Source of the DNA: Chitinivibrionia bacterium
Lineage (GTDB): Bacteria > Fibrobacterota > Chitinivibrionia > Chitinivibrionales > Chitinivibrionaceae
Direction: 5' to 3'
Assembly (NCBI GenBank): GCA_009779925.1
Contig: WRAZ01000014.1
Coordinates: forward strand, 1 to 44,710
DNA length: 44,710 nt
Under the pieces are notes generated by a model that saw only the letters and a program-made list of their open reading frames with translations, was not told the DNA's origin and did not search any database. The stretch's first letter is position 1; every line of letters begins with the position of its first letter. Shown here one piece after another: positions 3,946 through 44,710 of this stretch. The position numbers were made by a program, and so were the translations under genes.

Positions 3946-5070
3946 TTATCTTCTCACGCCGATGCGCGTGGAATATGTGAATCTTCTTCCGCTTACGCCT
4001 GTCGCTTCAACGGTAATTAAATATGTGCCGCTTGCTACAAGTCGTCCATTGTTATTTATCAAATTCCAGACCGCGGTCTGTTGAGGCGAGTGCCTCGCCT
4101 CAACAATATTAAATACTTGATTGCCCAAAGCATCGAGAATGCGAATATTTATCGTCGCGGGCTCTGGGGTAATAACCGTGATTTTTGCAATATCCGACAC
4201 TACCGCATTTTCGAGAATAATGCCGTATCTGCTATTGATTGCAGGATTGCGGTCGCGAATTGGAGATGGGTCGCAACCGTCGCAGATTTCTCCGACAATA
4301 AGACCGTCGTTTCTTCCCGCAAATACGATTTGATTTTGTCCTTTTATTTTAGAGTCCGCAATTCTGCCGCCGTTAAAATATACAAAACTTCCTGCGCTTC
4401 CTGTCGTCGAATTATCTGTTGAAATAGTTGCATCTGCCTCGGAATTTTTAATAAAGCCAAAATTCATTCCTATCAATCCGCCGCGCCAATTTCCGTTTGC
4501 TGTAATTTCTCCTTCAAAAGAACCTGCCGAAATTATGCCGTTGTTTAGACCTGCTAATCCGCCGATAACAGAACCTGTTCCCATCCCGGATGTTGCAATC
4601 TTTCCTGAGGCGGAAGAGTTTTCAATTATTCCGTTATTTGTTCCGACTAACCCTCCTAATACACCGCTGGATAAAACATCTGCATTAACGTTAATGTTCG
4701 TTATTCTTGCAAAGTCGCCTACAACTCCGAAAAAGCCGTGGTTTGGGTCCAAAGGAGATGTTCTGATAAAAATCCCATCGACAGTATGTTCGCCTCCGTT
4801 AAAATTTCCTTGAAACGGGCGCTCCGCAGTTCCGATCGGCGTCCATTGATTTGATTGACTGCCGTTAAGGTTAATGTTGGCGGCGAGCGTGATGTTTACA
4901 TTTGCAAAACCGTCTCTGCGTTCGGTGGCGTTATTGCTTCTTACTCGCCTCGAAAGCTCCGTTAAATCTGCGGCAGTTCTTAATGTAATGTCGTTTGCAG
5001 TCCAAACTGGCGCTTGCGCCCACAAACAACTGATTAAAGATATTGCCAAAATAAATATTCGTTTAAGCAT
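3946..5070 (-). CDS. secreted GLUG-like repeat protein with C-terminal sorting module
   Basis: The gene starts at ATG 5070 (AAGGAG upstream; an in-frame ATG at 5130 has no site), giving 374 residues. MLKRIFILAISLISCLWAQ is a signal peptide. Residues about 90-210 contain repeated GGLVGTNNGII / GGLAGLNNGII / GGLIGMNFGFI units, matching the GLUG motif seen in bacterial surface proteins. Residues about 295-374 form an Ig-like C-terminal module (ITVITPEPATINIRILD ... SGTYLITVEATG ... STRIGVRR) that is closely paralogous to the ends of the genes at 30927 and 44535. This resembles FlgD-Ig / T9SS type A sorting domains, so cell-surface delivery by the SprA translocon is inferred. A 12-bp-arm palindrome is translated in frame at residues 321-330. 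Confidence 0.85.
   Translation of the reverse strand: MLKRIFILAISLISCLWAQAPVWTANDITLRTAADLTELSRRVRSNNATERRDGFANVNITLAANINLNGSQSNQWTPIGTAERPFQGNFNGGEHTVDGIFIRTSPLDPNHGFFGVVGDFARITNINVNADVLSSGVLGGLVGTNNGIIENSSASGKIATSGMGTGSVIGGLAGLNNGIISAGSFEGEITANGNWRGGLIGMNFGFIKNSEADATISTDNSTTGSAGSFVYFNGGRIADSKIKGQNQIVFAGRNDGLIVGEICDGCDPSPIRDRNPAINSRYGIILENAVVSDIAKITVITPEPATINIRILDALGNQVFNIVEARHSPQQTAVWNLINNNGRLVASGTYLITVEATGVSGRRFTYSTRIGVRR
4079..4105. repeat. perfect palindrome translated inside the sorting module
   Basis: The arms TGTTGAGGCGAG (4079-4090) and CTCGCCTCAACA (4094-4105) are perfectly complementary around a TGC loop. The element is inside the coding frame and encodes about NIVEARHSPQQ, between the strand ending GNQVF and the strand starting AVWNL. 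Its position matches the palindromes of the other two sorting modules, but its sequence family is different. Confidence 0.85.
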
Positions 5071-5165
5071 AGAAAAATTCTCCTTATTATTGTTTATATA
5101 TTGGGCAAATATACTATATACCCTCAACAATATGCAAAAAAAACAAGCTTTTTGCGACTATTTTA

Positions 5166-17064: not shown

Positions 17065-17157
17065 AATTTAATTTGTTGCAGGCGTATTGAATGCGCTCTG
17101 AGAAACCGTAATCTCGTGGAGTAGAGCGTATGCGATGCGCCTGCAACAAATTAAATT
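17065..17157. repeat. 93-bp imperfect inverted-repeat element
   Basis: Perfect 20-bp outer arms (17065-17084 and 17138-17157) contain TGTTGCAGGCG / CGCCTGCAACA. Inside them the two halves remain imperfectly complementary (ATGCGCTCT near 17091 and AGAGCGTAT near 17124). It lies between convergent genes. A second element with the same TGTTGCAGGCG-type ends occurs at 43719-43780, suggesting a small palindromic element family. Confidence 0.75.
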
Positions 17158-21113: not shown

Positions 21114-24100
21114 TTAGAACGAAATCGTCACTTCCATTCCGAAGTTGGTGTTGTGGCTTAAGTTTTCGCTCCTGCCTCTTATGTTGCGGACTAAATTGTA
21201 GAACACCCGTGCGTCCACGTTTCTTGTCAGGCGGTATGTCATTTGCGGGCTTATGCTGACGGATATATCGTCGTATCTTTGGTCTTCGCCTGTTCTTTGT
21301 TGGAGGATGGGGTTGTCGTGCGAGACTTTGGTGTATCTTATTGAGAGCGAATAATCCATATCGCCGTTAATTTCTATGATTTGGTCTCTGAAAATTCGCA
21401 TTGTCCGACCTCTTCGCCCCGGGACGTGATAACTTGCATTCCAAGTGTTTTGCGTGGTTTTTCTTTCGGTCAGCTGGGTTAGCTCTCTTGACCATAAATT
21501 ATCGTTGTTGGACTCGCGGGTATGTGTTGTATCGAAGCCCAAATCGAGTTGGTAAGTAAAGCCGAGACCTATTCTTCTGAGGCGGAGGTTTGTCCTCAAA
21601 AGCGGCGTAAATCCCCAAGCTATGGTACTGTTTTCTTCTAATCTGACGTCTTTAACGCCCGATATTCTTTCGGTTCTTCTGAATGAATATCCCCAATCGA
21701 CGCGGAAAGTCGAGAAGTTTTGATTTACCACTTCCAATTGTTCAAATGCCGAACTGCTTAGTCCGAAGCGAAGATCCGGGTATGTTATGGTTGTATCGAA
21801 GCGTTCGGGTATCGGGGTAATGTTATATTCTCTTCTCCAGCCGAGAGAAATTGTATTTACCGAAATTTCTACGGGTTGCGGTATCCTCATTGCGGTCGAA
21901 ACCGTGTAATTTTGCGAGGTTCTTCGGGTGTCGGCGGCGTTTCCTTGCGTTGCGTTTTCGTCCCACCAATCGTTTCTGTTTTGCACTCCGCCGAACGCTC
22001 CCGCGTCATCCATATTTCCTGTGATAAAATCGCCCAAAGAACGGTTGAAAACACCAAACGAATAAAGCATAAATCTGCCTGTGTGGCGGTCAAGCCTGTG
22101 GTCGAGGTATTCCATATCGAGGCGATGATTTGTCAGGTTCATAGAAGCGCCGTAATTAAAGTTTACGCTTTCAAAACCGAAAGTTTCAAAGCCGCTTGCT
22201 ATGCTTGACATTGCATTTGAAAATCCTTCGCGCTCTCTTGCTCGTCGAGAAATATCTTCAAAAAGACGTCTCGTAAAAAGTTGAGTATTTACGGTAAAGC
22301 CGCTTGTAATGTTTGTGCGCATAAAAGTAGAGTCATTGTCAAATTCCATATTTTGTACGTAATTTCCCGTAGAATTGGACGAAATTCTGAGCCAGCGAGT
22401 TATTTCGGGCGTAAGTGAAAGTTGAATACCTTGGTCTCGTCCGTGTTCGCTGAAAAGTACGTTGTAAGGACCAAATTCTCTATCCAAGCTTAAAACCGCT
22501 TCTCGCGCAAAGTTTGAAACGCCGCTGTTGTCCCAGTCTCGGATAAATCTGTCGAAATTTCTGTTTATGCCGATATTGTAGTTTATGGACACAAACGGAT
22601 GTATCGGTCTGTGCGTTATGTTCAAACTATGTCGCATTCTCACTTCTTCGGTTGGGCGGGTGCTTATTACATATAAGCCTGCATCCGTCGTATCCATAAC
22701 GTCTCGTATTGAGGAATATCTTTCGTGCCAATTGTATTCCACGTCGAACAAGCGAAATACAACGCGTTCGGGAAGCAGGTTGAAAGACATATTTTTTATG
22801 TTTCTCGAAAGCGTCGAGCTTGTATTTTGGGAGAACGGCTGCCACGAAAGCACTTGCATAACCTCTTGTGAAGGCGAAAAATCGTAGGTCACATCCATAG
22901 CGTGGCGTTGGCTTGTAATTATTTCGGCGTGAAATCTGTCGTCAAAGTCGGGTCGGCGAATAAGTTCTCTTTCGTCTTCGGGCATACGTCCCATTCTTGC
23001 TAAAGAGTCTCTGAAAGTCATACTGTAATTTACGTCTATTCTGTCGGCGGTAAGACGAGTGCCCACTCTTTCGGAACGCCTGCTTTTTCTGAAGCCTGTG
23101 AATGCGGTTCTGCTTCTTCCGCGCATTTCGTATTCTTCGGATAAAGTGGTGTTGCCTCTTTCGGAACTGCCTGTAATAAATCGCGCAAAATCGCCTCCCA
23201 TATCACGCAGATTGTCTGCCTCGCCACGCTCGTTTCGCAGGCTTATATCGGAGTTGGGACGAATTTCCGGACGTTCGATTGTCGCTCTTATTTCACCGCC
23301 CAAAGGTATGTGTAAGCCGTGCCTGTCGGGAAAAAATCTGTCTAATCGTATGTCGCCGCTCGCTCCCGAACTTAATTGTGTGCGGCTGTCGGAAAGTATG
23401 TCATCGTTCATCATTCTGAAACCCGCGTCCTGATACCTGAAATCGAATGAATTACTTATAAAATCCGACCACCTGAAACGCATTGACGCGCGCGCCGCCC
23501 ATCCCGACCTTTCGCTTATACCTGTCGCTCGAAAGCCGTTTATCCGTATATCGTAGCTTTTTACACTTCCCGAACTGTTTTGGACACCGAAGGCAATCCA
23601 CGTAATGTTTGAAAGATTGGGCGGAATTCTGGTTTCGGTAAAAACCCTTATATAGTTGCCGTTGATTTCTTTTGTAGTATCTATGCCTACGTGCCTTTCG
23701 CCGCGCCTGTTAAACCACGCAAGTTTAAGGTCGGTAAAATCGTCCAGTTCTATTGAAAATCCCGGTCCCCAATCTTGCGTCAGCCGTCGGGTTCTGAATT
23801 CGTAAAAAGTCAAAGAATCGGTTCCGAGGCGCAGAATAAACCAACTACTGCTGTCGGCGGTGGCATTGATATTGTTTATACTTCCCAGACTGTCCATAGC
23901 CCAAAATCTTATTGCTCTATAATTGGATAAATTCATCGCTTGCGACGCCTCAAATCTTCTGTTTACAAAAACGCTTCTGGGAGTTGGGCTTTGAGCAGGC
24001 AAATCTTTGATTTCGAGACGAAGCGTGTAATCCACCGCCTGCTCGCCGTTAATTGTGTCGCGGTTTTTCCCTGACGGCACCGTGTAGCCGATGTGTGTGC

Positions 24101-27100
24101 GGCTGTCGAGAATACTTGCCGATATAAGCCCCGTGGTTTTTCCTGTACCGCCTTGCACCGAGTCGTAAACTTGCTCTTGCCACAGATTGCCGACAAACTG
24201 AATGCCTTCAAATTCCAAAGAATCCGCTTGTGCGTTTACATTTGTAGCCATTTCCGTCCAGAGCATTCTAACGTGTCTTATGGAACGCCAACCGACGTTT
24301 TCTAGCCAAAAACCTGCCGCGGGTTCTTGATAGTTTTCTGAGCCCCAGTTTGTACGAACGCTGTCGGGGACAAATCCTATGGGAAGACGAATGCGCACCC
24401 AACCGTCGTTGTTGGGATTTACGCCAAAACCTGCAAAAAACGGCGAGCTTTCAATATCTTCCAAGTTAATAATGTATCTGAAAAAAGCGCTGTCCGCTCT
24501 TCTCCAGCCGTTGTTGCCGATGTCTTCGCTGTCCACTCGGTCGTTGCCTTGCGTTCCGTTTACAAATCTTCGGTTTTGATGATTATTGTGGTCATAAATT
24601 CGCCAGTTATCTCTGCCGGGGTCGTGTCTCCAACCGCCTAAAACATGGTCGCGACTGTCATCTAAACGCGTGTCGCCGTATATCAATCTTTCCCAAACGG
24701 GCGCGTTTGTACCGTTTAGTCTCGGAAAACGCCAAAATTCCGAATGGTCGGGCAATCTGTCTAATCCGAGGTCGTTTTCGGCGCTGATGTCGCTTTGTTG
24801 GGATTCAAAATCCAAAATTCCGTTCGGCAGACCGCCGTCAAGCGAAATATCTGTCGATACTATACCGAAGTCTATGTTAAGCCTTCCTCTTCCTCTTGGG
24901 TTTGCAGTTCTGTCGAGCCTTAGCCAAAACTCAAAATATCGGTCTTCGCTTCTGTTCCAAAGATGTGAAGACAACGGATAAGTTATGCCTGCAAACGGAC
25001 TGATTAACGACCTTCCCGTAAGCGTACTGTCTTCAGAAATACCTCTGAGCAAATCAGGATTTTGCGGAAACGGCTCTACTACAAGTCGCATAGTGCTTAT
25101 TCTTTCGTCGTGCACTCGGTTGCCCCAAGATGTTGTAAAATCAGGCGGATAAATCTCATTACGTCCTGCTCTGTTGTCGCCTGTAGCAGGCAAATACCAA
25201 TATTGATGCCATACGGGAGGGGTTCGCCATATATTGCGCGTATCGTCTTCGTTGCAACTCTGCACCCTTACATCGCACCCGTTTATTGTGTCTGCGCGCA
25301 TAGCGTTATCGGGCGCGGCTCTGAACCAATTCAGATGTGAAAGGGAAAGCGAAACAGTACGGGCGGCGGTTGAAAAATTGTCTATAAACGCCTCGCCTCC
25401 GCCTCCTGCGGCGCTCGTTGCCCGAGAATGCGCTACTTCTATGTTAAAAGTCGCCGAACTTTGCGCCTCTCGTTCAATGAGCGGGATTAAGTTTATAAGC
25501 GAAGTCATCCAAAGCGGTGTAAAATCCAAGTTTAGATTGGAAGCGAACAAAAAGCGATTATATGGCTCCGTGCCTACTCGCGGCATCATTCTTTTTGCGT
25601 CCATCAATTGCCACATCAAAGTTGTGCTTAAAAACGAATTTCGACCGAGCCCGGGGAAATTAAGGATTGTATTAACTCCGATAAATACCTTTCTGTCGAG
25701 CAAAAACAGCGATTCTCTCTGATAACTCACCTCTAAAATGTCGGCGGCGAGAGCCCGCGGCGAAATCAAAACAACCTCTCCGAAACTGTAATCTATAGAG
25801 TAATCGATATGCCGTTGCAAAGTGTCGCCTGCCTGCGTCCAAATCCGCTCCGAATTTTCTACAACGCCGAAATCCAAGTGAAATCTTTCGCTTCTCCGTT
25901 TGCTTTCGGTGACTATTCTGAAATGTGCGGGCGGAGGATTTGTTCTGTTAAAATCATCGTAAATCTCGAAATTTACGTTCGGCACTTCATTTCTGTATAG
26001 TGAGGGGTTGGTGAAAACCCAGTTGGGGTTCAGCGAAGCGTCGCCTCTCGTGTCAAACGGCGGAATAAACATAAAGCCGTTTTCCAAGTCGAAAATACGC
26101 TGATTGTCTGTTTTCAGAATTCCTCTGTCGTCCGCAAGCCCCAAAATATCGGTAAAAAATCGTATGCTGTCGTTTTGTTCGTGCAATTCTCCGCCTACAC
26201 TGCGAAAAATTTGCAATCTGAAATCTTCCCGACTGCTTTGTCCGATGTTATAGACGTTTCTCATCATTAAACGACCTCTGTCGAACAGCACGTGGTTAGT
26301 GTCGATTATTGCCTCGCGCGGCTTGAGCGTCCAGAAGTTGCTTGCAGGACTGGTTATTGTGTCGCCCTGCGGACTTACGGTTTGGACTGTCGTGTAGTTT
26401 TGCCTGCCTTTGGGCGGAATTCGCGGGTCGCCGGAATCCCAAATAATACCTATAATATCGTGGTCGCTGATATGAGTTAAAAACTGGATAACCCCGGGGC
26501 GGTCTCTATGTATTATATAGTCGCCGTCTCTGCCGTCGTTGCTTTGTCGCAAACGTCTGAACGTGTGTACTTCTTCGGGGTCGTTTCCGTCAAGAAAACC
26601 GAAATGAGGCTCGTCGGGCAGACTGGAGACTCGTCTGAAAACGTGGACATTTTCGGCAATAACCGTCGGAAGGTTTGGGACTGCCGACGGATTGTTTGCG
26701 TGCGCCCAAAACAGCGAGTCCAAAAAGAAGAACCGATTTCTGATATATCCGCCTTCAAAAATACTGTCGGTTCGCGGGTCGCCGCTTCTTATTGAGCGCC
26801 GCTGGTGTTCAACGTTTTCAATACTTGCTATGGTTGTGATATCGAGCGGACCAAACCTTGAACGAATTCTTATCCCGAACAGGTTGTCGTTGCTACCCGA
26901 AGAAAATCCCGCAAGTCCGTGTCCCGGCATCTGAAAGCTCGTTCTGCCGATTTCAACTTCCTGAATAATATCGTCTTCGAGTTCTCCCGGGTATGACTCG
27001 CGATAGTGAATTCTGACTTGCGAAAGCTGGTCGCGCGCCTGCTCAAAAAAATCGTAGCCGTGCTGTTCGTCGCCACGCAGGTTAATTTCTAAGGTTAAAA

Positions 27101-27701
27101 GCCTGCCTACCGTTCCTCTTATGTTAAAATTACTCGTCGGTTTAAATTCGGGAGTGGGGCGGTGCTTTTCGGGGTGCTGGCGCGTTCCCGATATGTTTCT
27201 TTGAGCACCTATCAGCAATCTTTGAGTTCCTGTTATGGCAAGTTTCGGCGGCTCTTGTCCCATAATTCTTGTAGCCCAGCGCGGTAAATTGGCAGGGACG
27301 GCAAAAGCAAGTCCCGAGCCGTCTGTTGTTCCTCTTGTTGCACGCGCGGCGCGCCCTCTTTCGCGAACAATTTCGTTCCATAAGGATTGGCGTGCGTGGT
27401 TTTCAATGTCGCGGAAAAAATCCTCCATTTCGGCATAATGAAAAGACCAAATCGACATACCTGTAAGTTCGTCAATTCTTGTAAAAGTGACCTGTCGGCT
27501 TTCAAAATCTATTATAAGTGTGTCGCGCATCATTCGCGGTCGGTTGTTGTCGAGTATGTCCGCGTGAAACTCCAAAAGTGGAGAGCCGCTGTATAAATCG
27601 TCAAAAGGATTTCTGAAACTTCCGCTTCCGAAGCCCGATTGCGCCGCCGCCACAGAGACGAACGACATTAAAATCATAAACGACAAAAATATTTTAAGCA
27701 A
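21114..27701 (-). CDS. sprA: SprA/Sov outer-membrane translocon of the type 9 secretion system
   Basis: This 2195-residue protein starts with a signal peptide (MLKIFLSFMILMSFVSVAAAQ). The N-terminal region (PLLEFHADILDNNRP, DTLIIDFESRQVTF), the later FGPLDITTIASIEN, VDYSIDYSFGEVVLISPRAL-like segment and the long beta-strand-rich body agree with cell-surface protein SprA, called Sov in Porphyromonas. SprA is a giant beta-barrel through which T9SS substrates cross the outer membrane. The chain ends in FGMEVTISF, a terminal Phe typical of BAM-inserted barrels. It is slightly shorter than most Bacteroidota SprA proteins. No frameshift is seen. Secreted proteins with related C-terminal modules in this window are plausible cargo. 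No other T9SS core gene (porK/L/M/N, porV) is present here. Confidence 0.9.
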   Translation of the reverse strand: MLKIFLSFMILMSFVSVAAAQSGFGSGSFRNPFDDLYSGSPLLEFHADILDNNRPRMMRDTLIIDFESRQVTFTRIDELTGMSIWSFHYAEMEDFFRDIENHARQSLWNEIVRERGRAARATRGTTDGSGLAFAVPANLPRWATRIMGQEPPKLAITGTQRLLIGAQRNISGTRQHPEKHRPTPEFKPTSNFNIRGTVGRLLTLEINLRGDEQHGYDFFEQARDQLSQVRIHYRESYPGELEDDIIQEVEIGRTSFQMPGHGLAGFSSGSNDNLFGIRIRSRFGPLDITTIASIENVEHQRRSIRSGDPRTDSIFEGGYIRNRFFFLDSLFWAHANNPSAVPNLPTVIAENVHVFRRVSSLPDEPHFGFLDGNDPEEVHTFRRLRQSNDGRDGDYIIHRDRPGVIQFLTHISDHDIIGIIWDSGDPRIPPKGRQNYTTVQTVSPQGDTITSPASNFWTLKPREAIIDTNHVLFDRGRLMMRNVYNIGQSSREDFRLQIFRSVGGELHEQNDSIRFFTDILGLADDRGILKTDNQRIFDLENGFMFIPPFDTRGDASLNPNWVFTNPSLYRNEVPNVNFEIYDDFNRTNPPPAHFRIVTESKRRSERFHLDFGVVENSERIWTQAGDTLQRHIDYSIDYSFGEVVLISPRALAADILEVSYQRESLFLLDRKVFIGVNTILNFPGLGRNSFLSTTLMWQLMDAKRMMPRVGTEPYNRFLFASNLNLDFTPLWMTSLINLIPLIEREAQSSATFNIEVAHSRATSAAGGGGEAFIDNFSTAARTVSLSLSHLNWFRAAPDNAMRADTINGCDVRVQSCNEDDTRNIWRTPPVWHQYWYLPATGDNRAGRNEIYPPDFTTSWGNRVHDERISTMRLVVEPFPQNPDLLRGISEDSTLTGRSLISPFAGITYPLSSHLWNRSEDRYFEFWLRLDRTANPRGRGRLNIDFGIVSTDISLDGGLPNGILDFESQQSDISAENDLGLDRLPDHSEFWRFPRLNGTNAPVWERLIYGDTRLDDSRDHVLGGWRHDPGRDNWRIYDHNNHQNRRFVNGTQGNDRVDSEDIGNNGWRRADSAFFRYIINLEDIESSPFFAGFGVNPNNDGWVRIRLPIGFVPDSVRTNWGSENYQEPAAGFWLENVGWRSIRHVRMLWTEMATNVNAQADSLEFEGIQFVGNLWQEQVYDSVQGGTGKTTGLISASILDSRTHIGYTVPSGKNRDTINGEQAVDYTLRLEIKDLPAQSPTPRSVFVNRRFEASQAMNLSNYRAIRFWAMDSLGSINNINATADSSSWFILRLGTDSLTFYEFRTRRLTQDWGPGFSIELDDFTDLKLAWFNRRGERHVGIDTTKEINGNYIRVFTETRIPPNLSNITWIAFGVQNSSGSVKSYDIRINGFRATGISERSGWAARASMRFRWSDFISNSFDFRYQDAGFRMMNDDILSDSRTQLSSGASGDIRLDRFFPDRHGLHIPLGGEIRATIERPEIRPNSDISLRNERGEADNLRDMGGDFARFITGSSERGNTTLSEEYEMRGRSRTAFTGFRKSRRSERVGTRLTADRIDVNYSMTFRDSLARMGRMPEDERELIRRPDFDDRFHAEIITSQRHAMDVTYDFSPSQEVMQVLSWQPFSQNTSSTLSRNIKNMSFNLLPERVVFRLFDVEYNWHERYSSIRDVMDTTDAGLYVISTRPTEEVRMRHSLNITHRPIHPFVSINYNIGINRNFDRFIRDWDNSGVSNFAREAVLSLDREFGPYNVLFSEHGRDQGIQLSLTPEITRWLRISSNSTGNYVQNMEFDNDSTFMRTNITSGFTVNTQLFTRRLFEDISRRAREREGFSNAMSSIASGFETFGFESVNFNYGASMNLTNHRLDMEYLDHRLDRHTGRFMLYSFGVFNRSLGDFITGNMDDAGAFGGVQNRNDWWDENATQGNAADTRRTSQNYTVSTAMRIPQPVEISVNTISLGWRREYNITPIPERFDTTITYPDLRFGLSSSAFEQLEVVNQNFSTFRVDWGYSFRRTERISGVKDVRLEENSTIAWGFTPLLRTNLRLRRIGLGFTYQLDLGFDTTHTRESNNDNLWSRELTQLTERKTTQNTWNASYHVPGRRGRTMRIFRDQIIEINGDMDYSLSIRYTKVSHDNPILQQRTGEDQRYDDISVSISPQMTYRLTRNVDARVFYNLVRNIRGRSENLSHNTNFGMEVTISF

Positions 27702-30926: not shown

Positions 30927-33900
30927 CTATCGATTCACTCCGATCCTTGTGGAATAAGTAAATCTCCTTCCGCTTACCCCCGTCGCCTCAACCACAATCA
31001 GATACGTCCCGTTGGCGACAAATCTGCCTGATTGGTTGGTTAAATTCCAGACGATTGCGTTTTGTAGGGGCGGGGTCTGCCCGCCCAAATCGCCGTTCGT
31101 TCTGTTTTCATGGCGGGCAAACCCCGCCCCTACGACGGTTTCCGCAAACACCACATTCCCCAAATTGTCCAAAATCGACAAATTCACCGTTGCCGCCTCG
31201 GGAGTTATTACGAAAATTTCCGCAAAATTACTCGACACTGGGTTTTCTTCAACAAAAATTCCGAATTGGTTATTTTGTTGCTCTCTGTCGCGAATTGAGT
31301 TCGGAAGACAATCGCCTTCGCTTAACATAGGAATTACAAAATCACTCTCCGCCTTTTTTGCACCGCAGACAGAACACTCATAATGCCCTGCGCCTGCTCG
31401 CTCGCAATTTGCCTCGAGGGTTGTTTTTCGGACAAAATCGTGCTCGCAGATTATCGACCACGGCAAATTAAGCGGCTCGGAATGGGTTTCACCACTCCAC
31501 CTGCGGTTTATTGGGTCAACCAAACTTACTATTGCCGTAAAATTCCCGATAGCCGTTTTTTCGGTGTCGCCGCCCAAGGTGTAAAGTTCGGTGTTTACTG
31601 GGGTTAACGCTACTGTTTTCGGGTCGCTATCATAGATAAATTGATTTGCAACAAGAGCGGGTTTGGCTACCGACGCTTTATTCACAACAAAACTCAACGA
31701 AACATTTACCGAAAACTCTTTTCCTTGATTTTCTCCGCTTAAAACAAGTACATCGGTGTGGTTGTTTGCCGAAAGCGAGTTTTTGGGGCGAACGCTGATT
31801 GTGGCGAAATAGCCGTTTCCTGTTTGGCTTGGGGTGGTGGCGAGGGTGGTGGTGATTTCAAATGCCGAATTGTCGCCGTTTTGGAAAGTTGCGGTTAAAT
31901 CTTTCATTTCGCCGTAGGCAACGAATGTGAAAGTTTGCGCGGCGATGTCGGAATAATTGTTCCAAGCTACTGTGCCGAAGTTTCGGCTGGCGGGAAAAGC
32001 GTCTATTCTGTTGTAAGTTTCGTCAAGAAAGGCAAATCTCTCTGTAAAATACAGTCGCATTCTAGGTATTTCATTAGAATATCTATTAATCCTGTTGTAG
32101 CGTATGTCATCTTGTTCCGCACTTCTTGCGACTTCGATCGCCATAGAATCGATAAATTTGCTCATATCCTCTTGAATCCATTCTCTGTTTTCATTCCAAA
32201 TTTCTTTATATCTTGCACGAAATACAGGGTCTTGTAAAAATCTGTTAAAAAAAGGATAATTGGGATATGGCAATCTGTTTGCCGCCAAAGAATTTGGAAG
32301 TCCATTAAAGAAAGAACCAAAACTAAGGTCAAAATCCCAAAGAGGTCCTGCCTTTATTAGCGAACTATAGTTATTTTTGTGAATAAATATACTACCGGGA
32401 TTCTCTCTGGAATCGTAAGTTTGCACATTAAAATCAGCGTTATTGGCGAATACTTGCACTAAGAAATATTTTATCCACGAATCTATATCAACTAAATCAC
32501 GGTAGCCATTTTCTGGAAAATTGTCTGAAGCCATTAAATCCGTTAATTGATTCCAATCGTTTCTTACAAAATTATCTACTGAATTCGGTATTACGCCTGT
32601 AGGAAAATCGGGAGATTTTATCAAAACGGGAAGATTGTAATTACTTGTTCTGAATCCTGCATCGCCTGTGGGGCTGGTGTCAAATCTAAAATCCAATTCT
32701 ACAAACCAACCTCCGTTTTGTGTATCAATTAATGGTCTTCCCCGAACACCATCTCTTCCGTAAGGGTTTGCTTGTCTATGTTCGGTAAACAGATAACTTC
32801 CTGCATACGTACCGTTTAAGAAAAGTTCCGTATGATTAAAAGAAGGTGTGCACTCTAAACCTAATCTATAACCCATTTCAAACGCAAAAGAAGTTCTTAT
32901 CAAAGATGCATCAAACCAATTTGCCAACAACACCCAGTTTCTTGCCTCCGGAAGCCCAAAAGGAGATTGTCGTTCATTGTCTCTAAATCTCATACGATAC
33001 GGATTTTTATTGTTGCCGCTTTGCCAAGTAGAATTTCCCCGTCCTCTAATCTGTTGATTGCTTATTGCGGCAATATCGTTTGCAGGGTCGTTGGGGTCGC
33101 TTAAAGAAAATCGCATAGTAGTCCATATATTGGCGGAACTGTGATGTATTGCCGCGCCGTTGTGTGTATCTATGCGAATAACGGGCAAACCTGTTGCTTG
33201 CGGGGAGGCAAATCGGACGGTGTATTCAAAATCGCCGACTTGGTAAATTACAGGGTGGCGAAAATCGTGCGGCGTAATTCCGCTGACTTGCGGTTGTCCG
33301 TTTACAAATATTGTTCCGTGTGGGTTGTCGGTAGTGAAGATAGGAGCAATATTGGTGATATTCGGGATCCATCGTTGGGTTGTTATAGTTATAGTGTGAG
33401 CGTAATTGTCGATTTCGACGTTGTTGTTGAGGTCTAAATGTCCGTATTCGTTCCAGCCGAGCGCTTCAAAGGAAATTCTGAAATCCGTAATCATTGTGGG
33501 AATATCCATTGGCGGGAACGGGTTCCATTCGCCGTGGGCGAGGTTTTTGGGGCGAATGATGCTTAATTGGCTTGCATTAAAATCCCCATAGCGCGTTTCG
33601 GCAAAATCGGTAAAGTTATTTGTGCTTACGTCAAAAGAAACGCGCCTTACTCCCGCCGAACCCGAGTTTCGCGGTGGAGCCACTATATAAGCGTTAAGCA
33701 AGTCCGAATTCGCATTTCTTGAACCGAGGAGGTCTATAAGCCCGTCGTCTTTTTCGCCGTCCGTAAATGGATTTTGCACGGTTAATTCGGTCTTTCCGCG
33801 AAATAATGCTATTCTGAGCGCGCGGTTATTCAATATGAAACTCGGATTATTTATGTCGCCCGAATTGTCTTGTATTTGGAGAGGCATTGCCGCGTTCGAG

Positions 33901-34955
33901 TGATTTCTCGCTCCTAAAATAAGAAAAGATGTTTGAGCGGGTATTGTTCCGCTTAAAGGAATTGCGCTCCAAGCGCCTGTTCCCTCGGCATAAAAAAGCG
34001 TTATGTCGTCCAAATCGATTTCGTCGTCGGAGGCGTTAAAAAGTTCCACAAACGAATGAGTTGCCGCTCTGTCGTTGTTGCTCGTCGCTCCCGTTCCGAA
34101 TGCTTGGAAAATAAGCAGTTTCCCCGCAAGTTCGTCGCGTTCGATGAGCGGTATCGGGTCTGGATCCGGGGCTTGCGGAAATGGTTCCCAAGCGCCGTCT
34201 GATGTGCTTCTCGGTCTGTGTGATTGTAATCGCTCGTCGGTCATACCTTGCGCAAGTCGAAAATCAACCCTTTCAAAGTCGATACTGTTATCATCGGTAT
34301 CTGTAAGAGAGCGGCGGCGAGCAGTTGCTTGTTGCGAAATTACGATTGCAGGCGATGCTTCATAAGCATCGACAGCATCTCCGGGTGCAGTGTTTATAAC
34401 TCCAAGTAAATCAACAAAATCTTCGGCAGTTTCTCCGTTGCCCATATCAAATGGATTAGCGACAGTCAAATAGTTTTGATTAGCCATAAGCGCTACTTTG
34501 AAACTGCGATTACTTAAAGCGTGAAGAACAGTTGCAGGAACAGCATTGTCCGCTTCGGTGTCTTCAAATGCAAATCTTTGGTTTATTGTGTTGCTCACTT
34601 TGTTGAAGACAACAAGATACGAATGATTGGGCTGGATAGTTCCGCTTAAGTCAATTTTGACCCATTCTCCGCCTGCATCTCGATATTGCGTCCAACTGTT
34701 ATTGCTGGTACGTCCGTTGGCTACGTGCAGAGAAAAACCATCTAAGTCGATTTCCTCGCCTGTATTGTTGTATAACTCTACAAAACTGCGCCCGATAGCG
34801 CCGTCGCTTCCTGCTGCACCTGCCTGAAAAATAAGCAACCGCCCCGCAAATTCGCTCGCGGCTCCCGCCACTGTCCCATTAGCCCATACTCCACCGACGA
34901 TAAACACTATCGCCGCCAAGATTTTAATTTGTTTACCCAACAAAAGCAACCTCAC
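30927..34955 (-). CDS. giant surface protein: lamin-tail domains, CotH kinase domain, sorting module
   Basis: This is a 1342-residue secreted protein. A signal sequence (IKILAAIVFIVGGVWA) is followed by two lamin-tail domains (about residues 30-160 and 275-430; LLIFQAGAAG / SFVELYNNTGEEIDLDGFSL). A CotH-type kinase domain spans about 590-875 (QIRGRGNSTWQ, NWVLLANWFDASLIRTSF, AGPLWDFDLSFG). A beta-rich region with a CEHDF ... YECSVCGAKKAESDF segment (about 1168) precedes the Ig-like sorting module (1248-1342, ending STRIGVNR). CotH-domain proteins can phosphorylate proteins; the substrate here is unknown. The furthest start is GTG 34955, but GAGG then overlaps the first codons, so TTG 34943 or 34940 may be the real start. 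A REP-like palindrome is translated at residues 1274-1297. Confidence 0.87.
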   Translation of the reverse strand: MRLLLLGKQIKILAAIVFIVGGVWANGTVAGAASEFAGRLLIFQAGAAGSDGAIGRSFVELYNNTGEEIDLDGFSLHVANGRTSNNSWTQYRDAGGEWVKIDLSGTIQPNHSYLVVFNKVSNTINQRFAFEDTEADNAVPATVLHALSNRSFKVALMANQNYLTVANPFDMGNGETAEDFVDLLGVINTAPGDAVDAYEASPAIVISQQATARRRSLTDTDDNSIDFERVDFRLAQGMTDERLQSHRPRSTSDGAWEPFPQAPDPDPIPLIERDELAGKLLIFQAFGTGATSNNDRAATHSFVELFNASDDEIDLDDITLFYAEGTGAWSAIPLSGTIPAQTSFLILGARNHSNAAMPLQIQDNSGDINNPSFILNNRALRIALFRGKTELTVQNPFTDGEKDDGLIDLLGSRNANSDLLNAYIVAPPRNSGSAGVRRVSFDVSTNNFTDFAETRYGDFNASQLSIIRPKNLAHGEWNPFPPMDIPTMITDFRISFEALGWNEYGHLDLNNNVEIDNYAHTITITTQRWIPNITNIAPIFTTDNPHGTIFVNGQPQVSGITPHDFRHPVIYQVGDFEYTVRFASPQATGLPVIRIDTHNGAAIHHSSANIWTTMRFSLSDPNDPANDIAAISNQQIRGRGNSTWQSGNNKNPYRMRFRDNERQSPFGLPEARNWVLLANWFDASLIRTSFAFEMGYRLGLECTPSFNHTELFLNGTYAGSYLFTEHRQANPYGRDGVRGRPLIDTQNGGWFVELDFRFDTSPTGDAGFRTSNYNLPVLIKSPDFPTGVIPNSVDNFVRNDWNQLTDLMASDNFPENGYRDLVDIDSWIKYFLVQVFANNADFNVQTYDSRENPGSIFIHKNNYSSLIKAGPLWDFDLSFGSFFNGLPNSLAANRLPYPNYPFFNRFLQDPVFRARYKEIWNENREWIQEDMSKFIDSMAIEVARSAEQDDIRYNRINRYSNEIPRMRLYFTERFAFLDETYNRIDAFPASRNFGTVAWNNYSDIAAQTFTFVAYGEMKDLTATFQNGDNSAFEITTTLATTPSQTGNGYFATISVRPKNSLSANNHTDVLVLSGENQGKEFSVNVSLSFVVNKASVAKPALVANQFIYDSDPKTVALTPVNTELYTLGGDTEKTAIGNFTAIVSLVDPINRRWSGETHSEPLNLPWSIICEHDFVRKTTLEANCERAGAGHYECSVCGAKKAESDFVIPMLSEGDCLPNSIRDREQQNNQFGIFVEENPVSSNFAEIFVITPEAATVNLSILDNLGNVVFAETVVGAGFARHENRTNGDLGGQTPPLQNAIVWNLTNQSGRFVANGTYLIVVEATGVSGRRFTYSTRIGVNR
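31064..31133. repeat. REP-like palindrome translated within the sorting module
   Basis: The 22-base arms 31064-31085 and 31112-31133 (outer part GTAGGGGCGGGGT) are complementary with a single mismatch and enclose a 26-base loop. The element stays in frame with the host gene and encodes a segment beginning VVGAGFARHENRTNG. The same GTAGGGGCGGG arm occurs at 44683 in another paralogue at the same protein position. Confidence 0.88.
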
Positions 34956-44534: not shown

Positions 44535-44710
44535 TTACCTGCTCACGCCAATTCTCGCCGAATACGTAAATCTTCGACCGCTGATACCTGTTGCTTCGAC
44601 GATAATCAGATATGTACCGTTGGCGACGTATCTGCCCGTGTTGTTGGTCAAATCCCAGATAATCGCGTTATCGGCGGCGTTTGTAGGGGCGGGTTTGAAA
44701 CCCGCCCCTA
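44535..44710 (-). CDS. 3' end of another surface protein with sorting module (partial)
   Basis: The frame is open from the window edge to TAA 44535-44537 and encodes GAGFKPAPTNAADNAIIWDL, then NGTYLIIVEATGISGRRFTY and ends SARIGVSR. It is a paralogue of the C-terminal modules at 3946 and 30927, so it is most likely the end of a large secreted protein. The first visible residues (GAGFKPAPT) are encoded by the GTAGGGGCGGG palindrome. Confidence 0.88.
   Translation of the reverse strand, partial: GAGFKPAPTNAADNAIIWDLTNNTGRYVANGTYLIIVEATGISGRRFTYSARIGVSR
44683..44710. repeat. REP-like palindrome at the window edge
   Basis: GTAGGGGCGGGTTT (44683-44696) and AAACCCGCCCCTA (44698-44710) are perfectly complementary around one base. 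The last base pair falls outside the window. It is the same family as the repeat at 31064-31133 and is likewise translated. Confidence 0.88.

Follow-up and report, generated by a model that had tools for sequence, protein, structure and literature searches.

Palindromic DNA elements of many types are concentrated at one loop of a C-terminal sorting domain in a Chitinivibrionia bacterium

How do DNA palindromes come to be translated in frame at one fixed position of a sorting domain? The question is raised by a contig of 44,710 nucleotides (hereafter the window; contig C14 of genome G000, a 2.50-Mb draft in 88 contigs, 97.6% complete), in which three sorting modules each contain a palindrome (Table 1). 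The first-pass annotation had described these modules as paralogous, with the palindrome at one fixed loop, and all three palindromes were recovered. In the CotH gene it had reported a 70-base element with 22-base arms and one mismatch, which is found as described (arms at 31064-31085 and 31112-31133, 26-nt spacing). This 70-mer proceeds from GTAG through GGGCGGG(GTTTG)CCCGCCC and a spacer to an inverted copy, and its first GTAG pairs with the CTAC at the far end. As read from the sequence, the minus-strand gene runs through the element in frame (...GNVVFAETVVGAGFARHENRTNGDLGGQTPPLQNAIVWNL...), and the element lies between two strands of the C-terminal sorting domain. The RNA hairpin predicted for the 70-mer reaches -54 kcal/mol (z = -8.5). 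In the GLUG-motif gene, GTTGAGGCGAGGCACTCGCCTCAAC is found in the same loop, and the palindrome is unrelated to the 70-mer. The right-edge gene, for which a shorter loop of the same palindrome family had been proposed, indeed has a single GTAGGGGCGGG-containing palindrome (28 of 29 bp) at this position. An Rfam search of the window returned no match. A separate long inverted repeat (35-nt arms, 89%) surrounds the start of a minus-strand ORF at 17065-17157.

Table 1. Positions of palindromes, sorting domains and associated genes in the window
Feature	Position	Strand	Remarks
70-bp palindromic element (REP plus inverted REP, BIME-like)	31064..31133	-	read VGAGFARHENRTNGDLGGQTPPL; orientation relative to gene
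Secreted LTD-CotH protein, 1342 aa, domain carrier	30927..34955	-	
C-terminal sorting domain of CotH protein (FlgD-Ig / T9SS CTD-like)	30930..31250	-	ends in RIGVNR
Second palindrome type (TGTTGAGGCGAG...CTCGCCTCAACA, 12-bp stem)	4079..4105	-	read VEARHSPQQ
Sorting domain of GLUG-motif protein (gene 3946-5130)	3949..4212	-	
Single short REP-like palindrome, GTAGGGGCGGGTTTCAAACCCGCCCCTAC, cut by contig end	44683..44710	-	read GAGFKPAPT
Partial sorting domain of right-edge gene	44538..44710	-	
SprA-like translocon of type IX secretion system	21114..27701	-	SprA_N E = 2.9e-16, above cut-off

A domain search of the genome identified ~57 clear copies of the sorting domain, and profile pairing of the two domain halves yielded 51 fully readable loops. 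A palindrome is present in 40 of the 51, the opposite of a situation in which most paralogues would lack one. Palindromic loops are 12-31 residues long, and element-free loops mostly 3-12, with two of 20. Stems of at least 8 bp occur in 0.2-7% of random genome segments of 36-90 nt, whereas most loops have stems of 8-25 bp; the loop palindromes are thus not due to chance. The GTAGGGGCGGG motif occurs 100 times in the genome and its reversed control not at all. By simple ORF calls, the 68 elements with a GTAGGGGCGGG core divide into 25 in sorting loops, ~20 in other long ORFs and ~20 outside ORFs. Sorting loops total ~3.5 kb, so that 0.09 elements would be expected where 25 are observed; the copies are not independent, and the robust measure is how many mutually unrelated stem types are found at this single loop. 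With 25 of 68 elements in 0.14% of the genome, palindromes are concentrated at the loop far above the genome-wide rate, as had been anticipated. The original observation is confirmed, and the phenomenon is larger than first described.

Among the matches listed, which omit the last few contig-edge domains, strong hairpins in sorting genes are confined to this loop, a single second site and the region past the stop, two AT-rich stems being the exceptions. The second site is the turn preceding GGRRF in locus L047. L047 and L080 have a GTAGAGACGC-type palindrome in this second turn, likewise exposed (VETQCLASPSGG), for which only these two copies were seen, and L080 carries a long insert there. 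One GTAGGGGCGGG match (C26:8814) adjoins a sorting domain but sits past its stop. Palindromes of a GTAGAGACAAGGC/GTAGAGACGCG family are located 24-60 nt past the stop of many sorting genes (L034, L037, L039, L040, L058, L071, L073 and L074), several followed by a T run; judged by sequence, these dispersed palindromes look as if they were terminators.

The loops contain ~10 stem types, starting at offsets of 0, 2, 6, 12, 14, 19, 20 or 38 nt. The GGGCGGG REP core appears as the 70-mer, as a short form read VRAG(F/L)KPAPT and as a short form in another frame (AYGRVSNPPLQNA); further stems are of the GTATTGC, GACCG, AGACC, GCAAAT, GCAGGTTTAT, GAGACAAGGC, GAGGCGAG and CGACAGGCTCA types, together with a nested GGAGACAGGGTCTCC. 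The proposal that different palindrome families enter the loop is borne out. At least five stem types (the REP core, F, G, H and K) are also dispersed repeats elsewhere. Dispersal was surveyed in a 400-kb sample plus the window, complemented by pattern searches of the genome. Most copies of the GTARGGGC type begin at a single offset, 12. Another motif, GTACGGGCGGG, is found in sorting loops in 9 of 11 cases, compared with 25 of 68 for GTAGGGGCGGG, again with copies that are not independent. Read in frame 1 of the element, GTAG or GTAA gives a stop. GTAC stands in its place in 6/6 frame-1 loops (offsets 14 and 20) and is missing from 20/21 A/B-type loops, which are read in frame 0; this substitution is stop avoidance. 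An identical nested 24-bp insert is present in two different frames in L067 and L074, and decayed copies are seen in L043 and, in another genus (g6), in L365, L367 and L368. The element itself is widespread: its exact 29-mer was recovered from at least 120 stretches spanning many phyla, and 19 of 98 lay within long ORFs.

In-frame palindromic inserts are also seen in an HrpA-like helicase, TruA, MnmE, an ABC-F protein and an ABC transporter linker (L023, L028, L029, L019 and L026). At two further loci (L014, G000:C3 ~102 kb; L015, G000:C49 ~9.5 kb), a palindrome-encoded peptide forms the C-terminus of an HRDC protein. Its gene is followed by a reverse transcriptase ORF (RVT_1 in L014) that has a variable-repeat-like GSWNNNASNCRVAIRNNDNPSNRWNNNGFRV tail, and both loci are probable diversity-generating retroelements. 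On C3, a sorting-domain gene ends ~3 kb from L014.

We next consider the domain that accommodates the elements. In an AlphaFold2 model built with 36 homologues, it is a C-terminal beta-sandwich that ends at the stop, with pLDDT mostly above 90. The element peptide is placed between strands 33-42 and 66-68, where pLDDT falls to 49-56, and the loop is thus predicted to be disordered on a well-ordered sandwich. The best fold matches, to FlgD, C5a peptidase, PorZ and PorU, are weak (E ~5e-3 for PorU and PorZ). The domain resembles type IX secretion system C-terminal domains (TIGR04183 / PF18962 / PF13585; PorU, PorZ) in being an Ig-like beta-sandwich at the C-terminus of secreted proteins, in its weak profile and fold matches and in the presence of the SprA translocon in the genome. 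It differs from them in that its TIGR04183 and PF18962 scores are below the curated cut-offs and that, among Pfam models, FlgD_ig fits the region best. Despite these scores, the C-terminal sandwich, the weak fold matches and the SprA_N gene together support a type IX-like sorting role.

Element-free loops in a relative had been named as a point to look for, and they are found in the same-genus genome G001. There, GTAGGGGCGGG has no occurrence, and the loops of closely related sorting domains are palindrome-free and mostly 4-12 residues long (SGEGKNA, ETNGKSGEV, EKADRNGAQ). The nearest LTD-CotH homologue in G001 (contig C212, 44% identical) also ends in a domain with a palindrome-free loop. The zero count and the palindrome-free loops indicate that the elements arrived, or at least spread, after the species split. 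Divergent paralogues within G000 are likewise free of elements.

In genus g6, which belongs to another family of the order, a different sorting-domain subfamily is present (DASGNVVN[loop]GTWDLTD...VGVR), and palindromes are found in the corresponding loop. These include GTAGGGGCGGGTTTTAAACCCGCCCTTAC in G024, a GTAGGGGCGACC(GTCC)CCGGTCGCCC-type palindrome in at least five domains of G019 and GTAGGGGCGTTGCGCGCAGCGCCCC in G007 (loops L364, L365, L381, L414, L415, L418, L422 and L430 across the three genomes). Decayed relics also occur, the reading frames are partly other than in G000, the loop DNA looks unrelated and element-free loops are mostly 15-19 residues. The g6 matches listed number ~125; long loops were fetched by preference, so the palindromic share, on the order of a tenth, is biased. 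Because palindromes occupy the same loop of another family in other reading frames, the capture is convergent: it took place independently at the same loop in two bacterial families.

The 70-mer allowed us to ask how copies spread among paralogues. The genome holds 12 copies with 96-99% identity, all 12 in the same loop of sorting-domain genes and all pointing the same way, even though the opposite orientation would also give an open frame. Ten copies with both flanks share 98% pairwise identity, whereas flanking third codon positions share 56-58%; the element is thus much younger than the domain copies. In palindromic domains, similarity computed from odd and even codons is correlated (r 0.53-0.57), while that of adjacent 50-nt segments is not (r ~0.07). 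Loss of fine-grain similarity over ~50 nt implies that the domains are mosaic, as short-tract gene conversion would make them; some segment decoupling is also seen in G001. The 70-mer has probably spread between paralogues by gene conversion after domain duplication, a route that we infer from identity contrasts and mosaicism, with correlations computed on short sequences. Independent random insertion of every copy was rejected for the 70-mer (12/12 in the same orientation, chance 0.0005, both orientations being open). Exchange also fits the single orientation and the nested insert shared by L067 and L074 in two frames better than many fresh insertions would. The earlier suggestion of repeated entry hence stands in part: several unrelated stem types did reach one loop, but much of the copy number reflects exchange among paralogues rather than separate insertions.

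A special role of the palindrome as a recombination breakpoint, hinted at by a first Mantel test, was dismissed when segments within each half proved equally decoupled, which makes domain-wide mosaicism the safer reading. Linkage between the N- and C-terminal halves across the loop is r = 0.24 in G000 (39 domains) and r = 0.61 in G001 (13 domains), and this higher coherence in G001 is suggestive at these sample sizes. Three orphan downstream halves (L061, L069 and L080) begin at or in a palindrome and are fused to unrelated sequence, which shows that rearrangements can end at the palindrome.

A RAYT/Y1 transposase, which the first-pass annotation had suggested searching for, was not detected: PF01797 has no match in the 97.6%-complete genome, although the gene could be lost or lie in the missing part. 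We accordingly rejected this enzyme as the mover. No consistent target-site duplication was seen in the element flanks inspected.

Our preferred explanation, to which we assign a probability of roughly 0.7, is that the disordered inter-strand loop is a permissive landing site and that captured elements were then multiplied by duplication and ectopic gene conversion. Dispersed REP/MITE-like palindromes move or are exchanged, as their copies show, and some have come to rest in the loop with their frame open, at least 10 stem types having entered it in this lineage. The loop would tolerate them because it is predicted to be disordered and outside the sandwich. The ~57 domains would exchange loops through duplication and short-tract ectopic gene conversion. 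An element would be translated as a floppy loop of 12-31 residues and would be kept because the downstream strands and the C-terminus remain in frame, presumably at no cost to export. This explanation draws on the observed position, diversity and open frame of the elements, their recency relative to domain duplication, the element-free G001 loops and the convergent capture. Tolerance by itself accounts for most of the data; the constant orientation of the 70-mer and the offset of 12 exceed what plain random tolerance would give and need conversion or a target preference. A single ancestral insertion, followed by vertical domain duplication only and divergence of the palindromes, could explain why several types have offset 12 and a GTARGGGC start in common and why type A shows a weak tendency to go with similar downstream halves (p = 0.005). 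It is nevertheless very unlikely, since the stem types are not related to one another and have counterparts among repeats dispersed elsewhere, offsets and frames vary, the 98% identical 70-mers sit between flanks whose third positions are close to saturated, G001 and divergent paralogues in G000 have no elements, and another family shows the same pattern with other elements.

Insertion could instead be directed, with the mobilising machinery recognising the sequence or structure of the loop DNA, as might be suspected from the constant offset and orientation of many copies, the convergent matches in the other family and the restriction of near-identical 70-mers to these loops. Other stem types use other offsets, however, cores in HrpA, TruA, MnmE, ABC proteins and intergenic DNA reveal no common target, g6 loop DNA looks unrelated and a Y1/RAYT enzyme is missing, and we regard this alternative as highly improbable. 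Palindromes might also be actively maintained for a selected function, diversifying the exposed loop or acting as DNA or RNA hairpins (recombination hot spots that shuffle sorting domains, or mRNA structures). The extreme occupancy of the loop, the strong hairpins, the mosaic domains, the weaker linkage between halves in G000 than in G001 and the three orphan halves broken at the palindrome are all compatible with selection. Yet the same-genus species does without palindromes, the peptides that they encode are generic translations of the elements and also turn up in unrelated enzymes, copies decay in both G000 and g6, and the G000/G001 contrast comprises only 39 and 13 domains, so that we consider selection unlikely. 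Equally doubtful is the idea that mobile DNA drives the diversification and shuffling of the surface-sorting signal, with hairpins at the loop raising ectopic exchange among sorting domains, swapping loop peptides and halves and thereby altering the sorting, anchoring or recognition of exported proteins; a diversified surface signal had been raised as a possibility in the first-pass annotation. False joining of contigs by repeats would fit the contigs that end at an element (C78, C4 and the window edge), but ~40 in-frame loops have unique flanks on both sides within long ORFs and other assemblies show the same pattern, leaving an assembly artefact with a negligible chance. A permissive loop with subsequent exchange among paralogues thus remains our reading.

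We compared the elements to known systems. Di Nocera et al. 2013 described GTAG REPs, including intragenic ones, as lying mostly between genes and, within genes, as variably placed in unrelated proteins; their GTAG tag is unpaired, RAYT is the proposed mover, and they are widespread over phyla (PMC3733652). Our elements resemble these REPs and BIMEs as multi-copy palindromes of ~20-40 bp that start with GTAG, occur singly and as inverted pairs and are in some cases in frame. They differ in that GTAG pairs with the terminal CTAC in the commonest copies, in that they are not mainly extragenic and in that their copies accumulate at a single loop of a single domain family, in a genome where no RAYT was found. 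With MITEs they have in common that they are non-autonomous and multi-copy with terminal inverted repeats; no clear target duplication was seen in the flanks inspected, and no parent IS was identified in a transposase survey covering Y1. Rickettsia palindromic elements, which that paper also cites, are the classic precedent for in-frame, translated palindromes in many genes, and they decorate unrelated proteins; we know of no fixed structural site for them in a paralogous family. The likeness is one of behaviour, an element inside genes that is open in the gene's frame, and the host here is of another phylum. The literature that we searched on intragenic REPs, Rickettsia palindromic elements and type IX C-terminal domains contained no pile-up of mobile palindromes at a sorting-domain loop, in agreement with the initial remark that no description is known for sorting domains. 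In-frame insertion of such elements is known; the concentration of many types at one sorting-domain loop, in two families, appears to be new.

These findings show that mobile DNA has been captured again and again, and tolerated, at a single position within one protein family. Selfish palindromes that build protein sequence here amount to a countable natural experiment, with ~57 domain copies, ~10 types and several frames; relatives that lack the elements are at hand, and a second family replicates the result. To judge from the sequences, the loop appears to tolerate 12-31 foreign residues and is thus a candidate position at which to insert sequences to be displayed on proteins exported by the type IX system.
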